DNA from: a virus
Virus record (IMG/VR): IMGVR_UViG_3300021087_000032
Span: 1 to 38,763 of that record
Reading direction: 5' to 3' (one strand)
Length of the DNA: 38,763 nucleotides
Part shown: one piece after another, positions 15,915 to 38,625 of the stretch
How the letters are laid out: every line of letters begins with the position of its first letter
Numbering within the stretch: position 1 is the stretch's first letter
Notes under the pieces: model-generated
Seen by the model: the letters and a program-made list of their open reading frames with translations, nothing else
Told to the model about the DNA's origin: nothing
The model's database searches: none
Program-made: the position numbers and the translations under genes

Positions 15915-15950
15915 AACTATCTATGCATTTGCGTAGATAGTTTTTATTTT
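15915..15950 (+). terminator. Terminator between convergent units
   Basis: AACTATCTATGC and GCGTAGATAGTT form a 12-bp stem (one T-G pair) with loop ATTT, followed by TTTATTTT on the plus strand. The hairpin overlaps the last codons of the minus-strand Nudix gene, so it ends the glycosyltransferase unit. On the minus strand it has no T run. Confidence 0.85.
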
Positions 15951-16340
15951 CTTTAAGAAATCCCTAGACTTACACTGTATCTTTGCACCTGGGTGCAAAG
16001 GCTTAGGCCATTTGCCTATATCAACCCAAGCATATCCATCGCTTTCTCCGTTAAGAACAGGAATAAACTCTTCCTTTACTATTACAACAAAACTGTTGTA
16101 TATAAATCTACCATTACCACTTGTAAACTTGCTTATAGGAATAGTTTTTACTATTTCAGGCATCATGCCAATTTCTTCTTGTATTTCACGTCTTAGTGTT
16201 TCAATTGGGCGTTCGTCGTCTTCGCCCTTGCCACCAAAAAATCCCCACGTTTTAGAATGAGTAACTTTAGTGCTTCTAAGTTGTAATAAAATTCTTCCAG
16301 TTTGTGAGCTAAGAAAAATACAGCCACTTGCTTCTATCAT
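15921..16340 (-). CDS. Nudix hydrolase, 139 aa
   Basis: A complete Nudix box spans residues 37-59: Gly37, five residues, Glu43, seven residues, then REIQEEIGM. These residues bind the divalent metal that cleaves nucleoside diphosphates linked to another moiety. The rest fits the fold (GCIFLSSQTGRILLQLRS, TWGFFGGKGE). The start ATG overlaps the stop of the upstream gp15-like gene (TAATG), so it is the third gene of a neck-protein operon and presumably expressed late. T4 has a Nudix enzyme, NudE, but there it is not linked to neck genes. Substrate could be an oxidised nucleotide, ADP-ribose, a dinucleotide polyphosphate or capped RNA; the sequence does not decide. Confidence 0.9.
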   Translation of the reverse strand: MIEASGCIFLSSQTGRILLQLRSTKVTHSKTWGFFGGKGEDDERPIETLRREIQEEIGMMPEIVKTIPISKFTSGNGRFIYNSFVVIVKEEFIPVLNGESDGYAWVDIGKWPKPLHPGAKIQCKSRDFLKKIKTIYANA

Positions 16341-18906: not shown

Positions 18907-19878
18907 ATGTTTAGATTTTTTACAGTAAAAAAATGGGCTTTATGGTCCTGGCTAGGATCAGCAATAATCCTATCATCGCTTTGGATACAAGTCGAAATTG
19001 ATGTTAAGATTAACGAATGGTTTGGCCAATTTTATGATATGATTCAAAAGGCATTAGCAACACCCAATGCAATCACCATAGGTGAATATTGGGGCAGTTT
19101 AGCAAGTTTCTTATACTTAGCGGCTATCTATGTAGGTATCGCAGTAGTAGTAAGTTTCTTTACAGCACACTATCTATTTAGATGGCGCACAGCAATGGTC
19201 GAATGGTATCATAGTGTATATGACAAAGCTAGAACTATTGAAGGCGCCGCTCAGCGTGTGCAAGAAGATACTATTAAGTTTAGTCGTATTATGGAAGGTT
19301 TAGGAACAAGTTTTATTGAATCAATTATGGTTCTAGTTCAGTTCGTTCCTATTCTATTAGGACTATCAGTTGGTATTCCTATCTTCTTCTTTGGTGATTG
19401 GCAATATGGACTTGTTACAGGTGCTATTGTTTGGTCAGTAGGTGGAACATTATTCTTAATCGCACTAGGTTGGTTACTACGACTTGTGGGTGTTGAATAT
19501 GACTTACAGAAGAAAGAAGCAGCATATCGTAAGATACTTGTTATTGCAGAAGATGATGAGACAGTAAGACCAAAAACTATTAACGAACTTTTCCAAGATG
19601 TTCGTAGTATTCACTTTAAGTCTTATTTGCGTTATTTGTATTTTAATGTAGGACGTATTACATACTTACAAGCAAACGTATTAAGTGCTTATGTGTTCCT
19701 AGCACCAGCTATTGTAGCCGGCGTTGTAACACTAGGTGTAATGCAACAGATTATTAGAGCATTTGGTAGAGTTGAAGGCTCAATGCAATATCTCTTTAGA
19801 GCGTGGCCAACACTTATTGAGTTAATGAGTGTGTTCAAACGTTTAAGAGAATTTGAACGACAAATCAACGAAAAATAA
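18907..19878 (+). CDS. SbmA/BacA-family peptide transporter, 323 aa
   Basis: Motifs match E. coli SbmA closely: KINEWFGQFYDMIQKAL, SFFTAHYLFRWRTAM (83-97), IEGAAQRVQEDT (111-122), YGLVTGAIVWS (167-177), KEAAYRKILVIAEDD (203-217), YLYFNVGRITYLQ and AGVVTLGVMQQI. SbmA and BacA are inner-membrane, proton-driven importers of peptides such as microcins, proline-rich antimicrobial peptides and bleomycin. About five strongly hydrophobic segments are visible (about 13-28, 66-88, 138-161, 167-195, 255-280). E. coli SbmA has about 406 residues; this one lacks roughly the first 80, including an N-terminal membrane region, but keeps the core. ATG with AGAGGA upstream. It is a single-gene late unit with its own promoter and terminator. 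Substrate and role in infection are unknown. Confidence 0.9.
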   Translation: MFRFFTVKKWALWSWLGSAIILSSLWIQVEIDVKINEWFGQFYDMIQKALATPNAITIGEYWGSLASFLYLAAIYVGIAVVVSFFTAHYLFRWRTAMVEWYHSVYDKARTIEGAAQRVQEDTIKFSRIMEGLGTSFIESIMVLVQFVPILLGLSVGIPIFFFGDWQYGLVTGAIVWSVGGTLFLIALGWLLRLVGVEYDLQKKEAAYRKILVIAEDDETVRPKTINELFQDVRSIHFKSYLRYLYFNVGRITYLQANVLSAYVFLAPAIVAGVVTLGVMQQIIRAFGRVEGSMQYLFRAWPTLIELMSVFKRLREFERQINEK

Positions 19879-36477: not shown

Positions 36478-36486
36478 GATAAATAT
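36478..36486 (+). promoter_or_regulatory. T4-type late promoter (GATAAATAT) for the di-iron cassette
   Basis: ATGATAAATAT lies about 160 bases before the ATG at 36647, the longest late leader in the window. Confidence 0.82.
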
Positions 36487-36646: not shown

Positions 36647-37348
36647 ATGACAACATCAACACAATTTGTAGCACAACTACAAAAAGACAACGAAGCACTT
36701 TTCGAAGCTTCTAAAATGAACGTGAAAGCGTATTTCGAAAGCAAAGACAATTCAATGGAAGCTCTAGTAGAGCATTTCACTGGTCGTATGGTTAATGAGC
36801 GTATGAACATGGTTGAAATTTCAAACCAAGTTGCGAACATGCCAGCGGACGCTGATCCAATTGAATTACAAAACCTTTCTAAGCAAGCGATGGACGAAGC
36901 AATCCACTTCCGTATGGTAAAAGAATGCATCGAAAAAATCACTGGTGAAGAATTAGACGTTGCTGACGCAATGGCTAAAGAAGCAGCAAAACCAACAGCC
37001 AAAGGTGCTGACTTACTAGAAGCGTATGAGGCATCTTCTGATGCAGCTGCACTTGCAGTATATCAAATCGTTGCTGAAGGCAGAGCGGCAGCAGTATGGT
37101 CACAAATGGCTGAAACAATCGAAGATTCTTTCATCGCTAAATCATATGCCAAAATTGCTTCAGACGAAGGTTTTCACAGCACAATCGGTGCAATGAAATT
37201 AGAAGAAATCGCTACTACTCCAGAAGTTCAAGCACACGTGCTTAACATCGTAGACGGAATGCGTAAAGATTTGTTTGAAGTTTCTTGTGCAAACACAGTT
37301 GAAGCAGCTGGTTCACGTGAACTAGTTAACGAAGCTTACGGTTGGTAA
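36647..37348 (+). CDS. Ferritin-like di-iron protein, 233 aa
   Basis: ATG with TGGAG nine bases upstream. The all-helical protein shows the iron-ligand pattern of ferritin-like four-helix bundles: Glu51, then Glu84-x-x-His87 (DEAIHF), Glu144, then Glu174-x-x-His177 (DEGFHS). Spacings of about 33 and 30 residues match di-iron oxygenases and oxidases such as aldehyde-deformylating oxygenase or rubrerythrin-type proteins. No Cys-x2-Cys rubredoxin domain is present. Codons favour ATC, TTC and CGT more than neighbouring genes, suggesting high expression or a different origin. It heads a late unit with an amidotransferase and a 2OG oxygenase. Substrate and reaction are unknown; an iron-storage or Dps-like role is the main alternative. 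Confidence 0.72.
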   Translation: MTTSTQFVAQLQKDNEALFEASKMNVKAYFESKDNSMEALVEHFTGRMVNERMNMVEISNQVANMPADADPIELQNLSKQAMDEAIHFRMVKECIEKITGEELDVADAMAKEAAKPTAKGADLLEAYEASSDAAALAVYQIVAEGRAAAVWSQMAETIEDSFIAKSYAKIASDEGFHSTIGAMKLEEIATTPEVQAHVLNIVDGMRKDLFEVSCANTVEAAGSRELVNEAYGW

Positions 37349-37358
37349 TATATCGTAA

Positions 37359-37916
37359 ATGAATATTGGGTTAACACAACGCATATTCTATTACAATGAT
37401 ATTGCGTATGATTGTCTAGAACACGGTTGGCAACAACTACTAGGCGGTCATACGCCCACTTCAATAGCAAACAATCCTGAACAAGATTTTACAAAATTAG
37501 TTAAAGATTTAGACTTTATAATCTTTACAGGTGGCGATGCTAGTCCTCTCAGATTAAAAACAGAAATACGTTTACTCACAGAATGTTATAAACAAAACAA
37601 ACCTATACTAGGAGTTTGTCACGGAGCTCTTCTTATTAATCAACTAGAAGAAGGTGTTAATGTAGAGTGCGAAAATCATTATAATACAGAACATGATGTT
37701 TTAATGGATGATGAGATACATACAGTAAACAGTTTTCATCAAAATAAAATATTACAATTAGCTGACGGGTTTAATGTAGTTGCTACAACAAGAGGTGGCG
37801 ACATAGAAGCATTCAAACATAGAAAAAGAAATATCTGGGGTGTAATATGGCACCCAGAACGTATGGTAAATACTGTATTACCAAAAGACTTAGAAAGGTT
37901 ATTGTATGGAAAATAA
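37359..37916 (+). CDS. Class I glutamine amidotransferase-like hydrolase (C26/PuuD-like), 185 aa
   Basis: It shows the class I GATase layout: N-terminal IGLTQR, FIIFTGGDASPL (oxyanion region), nucleophile elbow PILGVCHGALLIN with Cys87, VNSFHQNKI with His127, and the catalytic pair in WGVIWHPERM (His165, Glu167). HPER and SFHQ are typical of the C26 family, which hydrolyses gamma-glutamyl amides or supplies ammonia from glutamine. The IGLTQR start with an early Asp/Glu-rich helix and Trp resembles the Campylobacter protein Cj1417, a gamma-glutamyl-CDP-amidate hydrolase. There is no synthetase domain in this gene. It starts ten bases after the ferritin-like stop and overlaps the next gene by 11 bases. 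The substrate is unknown. Confidence 0.85.
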   Translation: MNIGLTQRIFYYNDIAYDCLEHGWQQLLGGHTPTSIANNPEQDFTKLVKDLDFIIFTGGDASPLRLKTEIRLLTECYKQNKPILGVCHGALLINQLEEGVNVECENHYNTEHDVLMDDEIHTVNSFHQNKILQLADGFNVVATTRGGDIEAFKHRKRNIWGVIWHPERMVNTVLPKDLERLLYGK

Positions 37917-38625
37917 AAATGAAAATTGGGGAGATAGTCGTTGGGAGTTTACCAAAGCTCAATCACAATGGCACTTTGATGCTTTAAAAGAAGGCCCACA
38001 AGATTACCAAAACGTATGCACGTTTGAAGGTGATTGGGATGATGCAGTAAACCAATGCTTAGGTAGAGTTTTAGACAGTTCATGGTCTAGTCGTAACCAA
38101 CTAAGCAAAGATGATGATCATAGAACATATACTGCTGATGCAGAAGAACAAGATTTAATCCGTGCTGGTGCTGATCCAAAAATGGAAGTATTCTCACGCA
38201 CAAAAGCAGAAGATTTTGAAGTATTCCAAAACATTGCAGCATACTTTGGCCTGGAAGAATATACAGTTAAATTCCACAATCAACGCACAGGACAAATGTT
38301 GCATTGGCATATTGATAACTTTGCAGGTCGCAAAGAACGTGGCAATACATTTACAGAAATTGAAGCTGATAAAAATCCAGAACTGATGAGACGTTTTGTA
38401 ATCATGCTAGATGATTGGAAACACGGACAAGTGTTTGCATTAGGTAACAGCAATTGGCACCAATGGAAACGTGGCGAATGTATTACTTGGGAATGGCGTG
38501 ATATTCCACATGCTACATGCAATATGGGTTGGGAAAACCGCCCTATGCTACAAGTAACAGGCTGGACAACAGAACAAACACACAGTATATTAAACGGTTC
38601 AAAAGAAACTTTAATAAAAGTTTAA
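37906..38625 (+). CDS. Fe(II)/2-oxoglutarate-dependent oxygenase-like protein, 239 aa
   Basis: The iron facial triad is visible: His135-x-Asp137 in MLHWHIDNFA and distal His202 in RDIPHATCN, with Arg212 ten residues later (NRPMLQVTG) to bind 2-oxoglutarate. RRFVIMLDDWKHGQVFALG and HQWKRGECITWEW fit the double-stranded beta-helix core, in the style of aspartyl/asparaginyl hydroxylases. 2OG oxygenases of this sort are frequent in T4-like marine phages. The N-terminal 100 residues are unassigned. ATG lies within the end of the amidotransferase gene. The substrate could be a protein residue, a nucleobase or a small molecule. Confidence 0.83.
   Translation: MENKNENWGDSRWEFTKAQSQWHFDALKEGPQDYQNVCTFEGDWDDAVNQCLGRVLDSSWSSRNQLSKDDDHRTYTADAEEQDLIRAGADPKMEVFSRTKAEDFEVFQNIAAYFGLEEYTVKFHNQRTGQMLHWHIDNFAGRKERGNTFTEIEADKNPELMRRFVIMLDDWKHGQVFALGNSNWHQWKRGECITWEWRDIPHATCNMGWENRPMLQVTGWTTEQTHSILNGSKETLIKV

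Follow-up and report, generated by a model that had tools for sequence, protein, structure and literature searches.

The window analysed here is the whole of a 38,763-bp IMG/VR record from a T4-like phage, and its last complete genes form a compact block on the plus strand. P0001 (36647-37348; 233 amino acids) is predicted to encode a ferritin-like di-iron protein of a new family, a probable O2-activating oxidase or oxygenase. P0002 (37359-37916; 185 amino acids) encodes a putative class I or Peptidase C26 glutamine amidotransferase (GATase), closest to gamma-glutamyl-CDP-amidate hydrolase, and P0003 (37906-38625; 239 amino acids) a candidate 2OG-Fe(II) oxygenase that is optional in the wider cassette described below. 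All three open reading frames are intact; a 10-bp gap separates P0001 from P0002, and P0002 overlaps P0003 by 11 bp, in agreement with the three consecutive, tightly spaced genes of the initial annotation. The record stops 138 bp past P0003, inside the next gene, and gp32-like, UvsX-like and UvsY-like proteins are encoded ahead of the block. Judged from dN/dS values against close relatives (0.07-0.17 for P0001, 0.10-0.32 for P0002 and 0.07-0.18 for P0003), all three genes evolve under purifying selection. Elsewhere, the window contains a gene for a SbmA/BacA-family protein (18907-19878, plus strand; Pfam E = 4e-140 over the full model length), a member of a peptide-importer family, and, on the minority (minus) strand, a gene for a NUDIX hydrolase (15921-16340).

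A late-promoter-like GATAAATA site (ATAAATA, 36479-36485, plus strand) starts 168 nt upstream of P0001. There are 10 plus-strand sites of this type in the window, spanning positions 1793 to 36479, and every one of the 10 lies no more than 200 bp upstream of a gene start, in zones that together make up 16% of the window. The motif also recurs in relatives: among the 83 homologous P0001 loci with enough sequence, 75 carry ATAAATA within 250 bp upstream of the gene, against 10.6 expected from mononucleotide shuffles, many of these loci being related rather than independent. The T4 late consensus TATAAATA was tried as the motif of the window and rejected; the GATAAATA-type motif, which differs from TATAAATA, probably serves this group of phages as a late promoter. 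The single late promoter proposed ahead of the three genes thus holds as a motif. By analogy with T4, the site at 36479-36485 would act as a late promoter, so that the cassette is apparently switched on late in infection.

The assignment of P0001 to the di-iron proteins draws on both its residues and its predicted structure. In an alignment of 39 relatives (62-94% identity), E51, E84, H87, E144, E174 and H177 are invariant and form a ligand signature of the type E..ExxH..E..ExxH, as in ferritin-like di-iron proteins. An AlphaFold2 model computed from the 39-sequence alignment (mean pLDDT 92, pTM 0.88) places these ligands on the four long helices of a bundle (residues 37-63, 71-99, 133-157 and 161-188). 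Fold prediction had been named in advance as a check on the di-iron claim, and it did not refute the claim, since the model is a helical bundle with the predicted ligands on four helices. Ferritin-like and haem-oxygenase-like bundles dominate the top Foldseek matches, and many of these are di-iron enzymes; among the matches are PaaA, aldehyde-deformylating oxygenase (ADO), UndA, PolF, CADD, relatives of bacterioferritin and DPS-like proteins, together with TenA homologues; TM-scores lie at about 0.4-0.64, and none of the matches has E <0.001. A rubrerythrin domain and RNR R2 subunits were matched among viral structure models.

Two groups of known proteins come closest to P0001. With ferritin-like di-iron oxygenases (PaaA, ADO and rubrerythrin or bacterioferritin relatives) it shares the four ligand helices, the E..ExxH..E..ExxH signature and the bundle, and the matches to PaaA, ADO, bacterioferritin-related and DPS-like proteins have a Foldseek probability of ~1 at TM-scores of 0.4-0.6. 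It differs from them in having no detectable sequence relation in the PDB or Pfam, in being centred on phages and in lying, in phages, nearly always beside a GATase gene. The haem-oxygenase-like di-iron oxidases UndA, PolF and CADD, with TenA, are among the best folds (TM-score about 0.5-0.64), yet the ligand pattern of these oxidases differs from the paired ExxH; P0001 has two invariant ExxH motifs and does not show the HDO-type ligand motif. We take its ligand spacing to be nearer to that of oxygenases such as ADO.

No significant family was found for P0001 in Pfam, PHROG or NCBIfam, no sequence relative in the PDB even when searching with the 39-sequence profile, and no significant direct sequence relative among cultured phages or plasmids; nor does it contain a rubredoxin domain. 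Because its ligands are invariant and its model is a bundle, yet family and PDB sequence relatives are absent, P0001 is best described as a new family whose predicted fold is supported at superfamily level. A known anti-phage defence system was considered and rejected, as none of the three proteins, P0001 included, has a match in PADLOC.

P0002 is, by sequence, a class I (C26) glutamine amidotransferase. It matches Peptidase C26 in Pfam above the cut-off (7.7e-19) and GATase at 3e-12, and the proposed catalytic residues Cys87, His165 and Glu167 are present as an intact triad that is nearly invariant or invariant across 26 aligned relatives. A second GATase copy, at locus L072 (4637-5182), is degenerate and no longer has the Cys and His needed for catalysis. 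Among NCBIfam models, P0002 scores best against NF045546, gamma-glutamyl-CDP-amidate hydrolase (2.6e-23; 83 bits against a cut-off of 250), and the same model is best for five diverse homologues (48-76 bits against the same cut-off); in all six proteins it beats GMP synthase, the second-best family for P0002, by a margin. This likeness is a lead rather than evidence of membership.

P0003 is recognisable as a divergent 2OG-Fe(II) oxygenase by its predicted fold and its ligands rather than by profile score, since its match to 2OG-FeII_Oxy_3 (E = 0.02; 16.3 bits) falls below the gathering score of 27. H135xD137, H202 and R212 are invariant in 26 aligned relatives, and the model (pLDDT 86) is a double-stranded beta-helix that matches AspH and prolyl hydroxylases with E about 1e-5, in line with the enzyme type first assigned to it. 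The nearest relative of P0003 in cultured phages is a single distant 2OG oxygenase, which lies in a cyanophage glycosyltransferase cluster.

Homologues of P0001, P0002 and P0003 occur on 298, 270 and 447 IMG/VR viral contigs, respectively. So that the linkage counts would not be circular, gene neighbourhoods were taken from loci found with P0002 as the only seed; as seed loci are the best matches to the genes of the window, the counts describe the relatives of the window rather than phages at large. P0001 is present in 77 of 78 P0002-seeded loci, and the two genes are directly adjacent in 60 of the 76 loci in which both are annotated, with a median gap of 1 bp. A P0003 relative occurs somewhere in 33 of the 78, often placed elsewhere, and conversely P0001 is found in 9 of 79 P0003-seeded loci. 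Co-occurrence in related phages, which the initial annotation had set as a check, was found, as the families recur together; the trio as a unit did not survive, the strict succession of di-iron protein, GATase and 2OG oxygenase being seen in only 4 of the 78 loci, all from the clade of the window. Members of this clade carry only the pair, or the pair with a 2OG oxygenase or a binding protein, and the window ends right after the trio. Gene order thus identifies the natural unit as a near-obligate P0001-P0002 pair, with the 2OG oxygenase as an optional part of a modular cassette. No description of this gene combination was found in the literature searched, a coverage that excludes most subscription journals.

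These data bear on another view of P0001, namely that, as a rubrerythrin-like or iron-handling protein, it protects against peroxide in late infection, with P0002 and P0003 as independent metabolic genes of the same operon. Its fold matches include rubrerythrin, bacterioferritin-like and Dps-like proteins, and it is conserved far above its partners (61-70% identity across distant contigs), both of which such a role would accommodate. In the late regions of related phages, however, the P0001-P0002 block changes position, following uvsY or the major capsid gene or lying close to tail genes (gene names read by eye), and near-obligate adjacency to a GATase at varied genome positions is unexpected for an independent protector. 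The missing rubredoxin domain and the presumed nearness of the ligand spacing to ADO-type oxygenases also speak against it, and we regard a protective role as distinctly unlikely.

Instead, we favour a pathway built around the pair, and the genes that travel with it give some indication of its chemistry. In the following, FER and GAT denote the P0001 and P0002 families, CUP a cupin, MT a methyltransferase, PLA and PLB two sulfotransferase-like P-loop families and SBP a TctC-like binding protein. The 78 P0002-seeded loci contain MT in 57, PLB in 54, PLA in 53 and the cupin in 26 cases, and a kinase gene in only 10; the 79 P0003-seeded loci contain MT in 54, SBP in 50, PLB in 44, TctA in 39 and PLA in 35. 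Usual gene orders are MT' / FER GAT CUP PLA PLB 2OG, FER GAT CUP PLA PLB MT, and FER GAT SBP PLB 2OG. Several partners are recognised by Pfam (TctA, 1.9e-92; TctC, 1.3e-18; Cupin_2, 1.9e-11; APS_kinase, 1.1e-8). Members of PLB match Sulfotransfer_3 weakly in 11 of 22 cases (best 2.6e-5), PLA is assigned by motif and a weak PDB hint only, and for one P-loop family the PDB gives a weak match to tyrosylprotein sulfotransferase (E 0.5).

Individual loci show further variations. An APS-kinase-like domain is fused to an NMN-adenylyltransferase-like domain inside the cassette at L051 (7261-8037) and L046 (8561-9412). Genes for a TctA membrane subunit and a TctC-like binding protein lie beside the 2OG oxygenase gene in T4-like phages (L089, 4544-7826; L057, L088, L266 and others). 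Carbamoyltransferase-like, radical-SAM-like and glycosyltransferase-like genes, read by eye, lie upstream of the cassette in L028 (1-5950) and similar marine loci, and a fatty acid desaturase gene (L083, 9165-9779) is found on a phage contig that also carries a 2OG oxygenase. Comparable genes have been reported from other viruses: OM43 phage genomes are said to contain 2OG oxygenase and sulfotransferase genes (PMC10580990), and 2OG-FeII oxygenase and tctA were reported as candidate auxiliary metabolic genes of SUP05 viral contigs (PMC4164917). In our loci 2OG oxygenase and tctA genes are neighbours in many contigs, whereas neither a di-iron/GATase pair nor a linked cassette was found described for the SUP05 contigs (PMC4164917).

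Outside the IMG/VR contigs, P0001 is close to absent from bacterial genomes. Queries with P0001, the cupin and PLA returned nothing from 50,697 cultured-phage records. A pattern-based scan of 84,980 species genomes found P0001 on five contigs, three of which are small, viral- or mixed-looking contigs of metagenome-assembled genomes (MAGs). On one MAG contig binned as a Nitrosopumilaceae archaeon (L095, 2748-4730), the cassette genes run into an open reading frame that partly matches an archaeal CCA tRNA nucleotidyltransferase; this contig is probably chimeric. The chromosomal cases are Massilia atriviolacea and Janthinobacterium sp. UMAB-56, which share a syntenic cluster (L334/L335 and L336/L337) of five phage cassette families, P0001, cupin, MT, PLA and PLB. 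Here MT, PLB, a sulfatase-superfamily gene and a 2H-phosphoesterase gene lie on one strand and FER-CUP-PLA on the other, with an NMT1-type ABC importer adjoining; the cluster also contains another ferritin-like gene, assigned to DUF455 by Pfam in Janthinobacterium. P0002 has no clear orthologue in either genome, only weak matches elsewhere in them, and since these chromosomal versions lack an obvious orthologue, the cassette does not need the GATase in all its versions. The wider chromosomal search was nearly empty (P0001 in 1 of 294 genomes from the family and 1 of 40 from the genus, PLA in 1 of 398 from the phylum), and the bacterial context therefore consists of two genomes only. In the tree, both chromosomal P0001 proteins fall inside the phage diversity (branch support 91/92), a placement consistent with transfer.

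The recurrence of the same families in hundreds of phage contigs and, with another importer, in two bacterial chromosomes argues for one pathway, and to this extent the proposal of a small biosynthetic or modification pathway is supported. The targets named with it (a DNA base, a virion protein, or an amidated sugar or phosphate) fared less well, as none could be shown. We infer the catalytic activities, order of steps, timing, substrate and biological role as follows. The pathway would be a tailoring route that phages carry and express late, with the P0001-P0002 pair at its centre. P0001 would act as a di-iron oxidase, activating O2 on a small substrate or an activated intermediate, and P0002, made from the same transcript, would hydrolyse a gamma-glutamyl amide, either to strip glutamate from an intermediate linked to an amine or nucleotide or to free ammonia from glutamine. 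P0003 may add a 2OG-dependent hydroxylation in some versions, and fuller versions would add the methyltransferase, sulfotransferase-like transferases, cupin, APS-kinase-like/nucleotidyltransferase protein and TctA/TctC-type importer. Because fuller cassettes contain transferases, cupin, kinase and importer, the product would probably be an envelope sugar or lipid that bears a decoration, or a metabolite that is imported and modified. We hold this reading with about even confidence.

A glutamine-synthetase-type gamma-glutamyl ligase was considered as a partner and rejected (0 of 19 long contigs). As neither such a ligase nor a glutamine-kinase domain was seen in long phage contigs, either the host or an enzyme not recognised as such would have to supply the gamma-glutamyl substrate; absences in long contigs are moderate evidence, since these contigs may be incomplete. 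The pairing of an amidoligase with a class II GATase in phiEco32 and OM43 phages is likewise a phage-borne gene pair with a glutamine amidotransferase, but P0002 belongs to a different GATase class and has no amidoligase near it; this pair was rejected, amidoligase domains occurring in 4 of 19 long contigs and never beside the cassette.

The closest described chemistry is the MeOPN pathway of Campylobacter jejuni, to which NF045546 belongs (Cj1417) and in which Cj1415-Cj1418 produce CDP-phosphoramidate 3'-phosphate (PMC11800397). A phosphoramidate route in the phages would have P0002 cleave gamma-glutamyl-CDP-amidate, the APS-kinase-like enzyme make a 3'-phosphate, sulfotransferase-fold proteins carry out transfer from a PAPS-like donor and the methyltransferase cap the product. 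The rank of NF045546 ahead of GMP synthase in P0002 and its homologues fits this scheme, as does the presence of an APS-kinase-like kinase, sulfotransferase-like proteins and a methyltransferase in the same cassettes. Against it, the NF045546 scores (48-83 bits) are far below the cut-off, the PPDK_N glutamine-kinase domain was found in 0 of 12 long phage contigs, the NTP_transf_3 cytidylyltransferase exceeded its cut-off in 1 of 19 contigs, and the kinase gene is confined to the 10 loci noted above. We also know of no counterpart of P0001, the cupin or the 2OG oxygenase in the MeOPN pathway. The complete pathway is rejected, in that P0002 is hydrolase-like but the glutamine kinase and a matching cytidylyltransferase are missing from these contigs, and a MeOPN-like route as such is quite improbable.

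Protein modification, by hydroxylation and sulfation of a virion protein or tail fibre, would suit the AspH and prolyl hydroxylase matches of P0003, the tyrosylprotein sulfotransferase hint and the late promoter motif. These similarities are at superfamily level, however; the importer genes and the GATase would be left with no role, and no conserved candidate substrate protein was found adjoining the cassette, which makes this reading very improbable. Known base-modification pathways include class I GATases and 2OG oxygenases, and with GMP synthases second-best for P0002 the three proteins might be thought to modify phage DNA or free nucleotides, yielding a hypermodified base. The late promoter instead suggests expression after much DNA synthesis, the neighbours in relatives are importer and sulfotransferase-like genes, and thymidylate-synthase-type genes are patchy, occurring in only 6 of 19 long contigs; hypermodification through thymidylate-synthase homologues was rejected on this count, and we consider base modification in general highly improbable.

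For the tailoring pathway, a decoration chemistry is suggested by the similarities to NF045546, Sulfotransfer_3 and APS kinase and by the cyanophage glycosyltransferase cluster around the P0003 relative. In a more specific form, which we offer tentatively and think unlikely, a phage-specific pathway built around a gamma-glutamyl hydrolase and di-iron oxygenases of a new family would make a chemically new group late in infection, for example an N-oxidised or phosphoramidate-like one that is later sulfated or methylated, its genes being passed between phages and bacterial chromosomes.

Metabolism genes of phages are usually copies of host genes. The putative oxidase family described here is known almost only from phages: some 300 viral contigs from metagenomes carry it and the 50,697 cultured-phage records lack it, it keeps the same hydrolase alongside, and the promoters ahead of it resemble those of virion genes. 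For specialists, a di-iron family centred on phages and nearly always paired with a hydrolase would come as a surprise, although the case as a whole is a moderate one. The P0001-P0002 cassette has the appearance of a chemical modification pathway, carried by phages, that has not been described before. Should it indeed be a tailoring pathway, then a large group of T4-like phages not yet in culture would be making or modifying a molecule that no one has sought so far, and the two copies on bacterial chromosomes would be a tractable starting point for identifying it.
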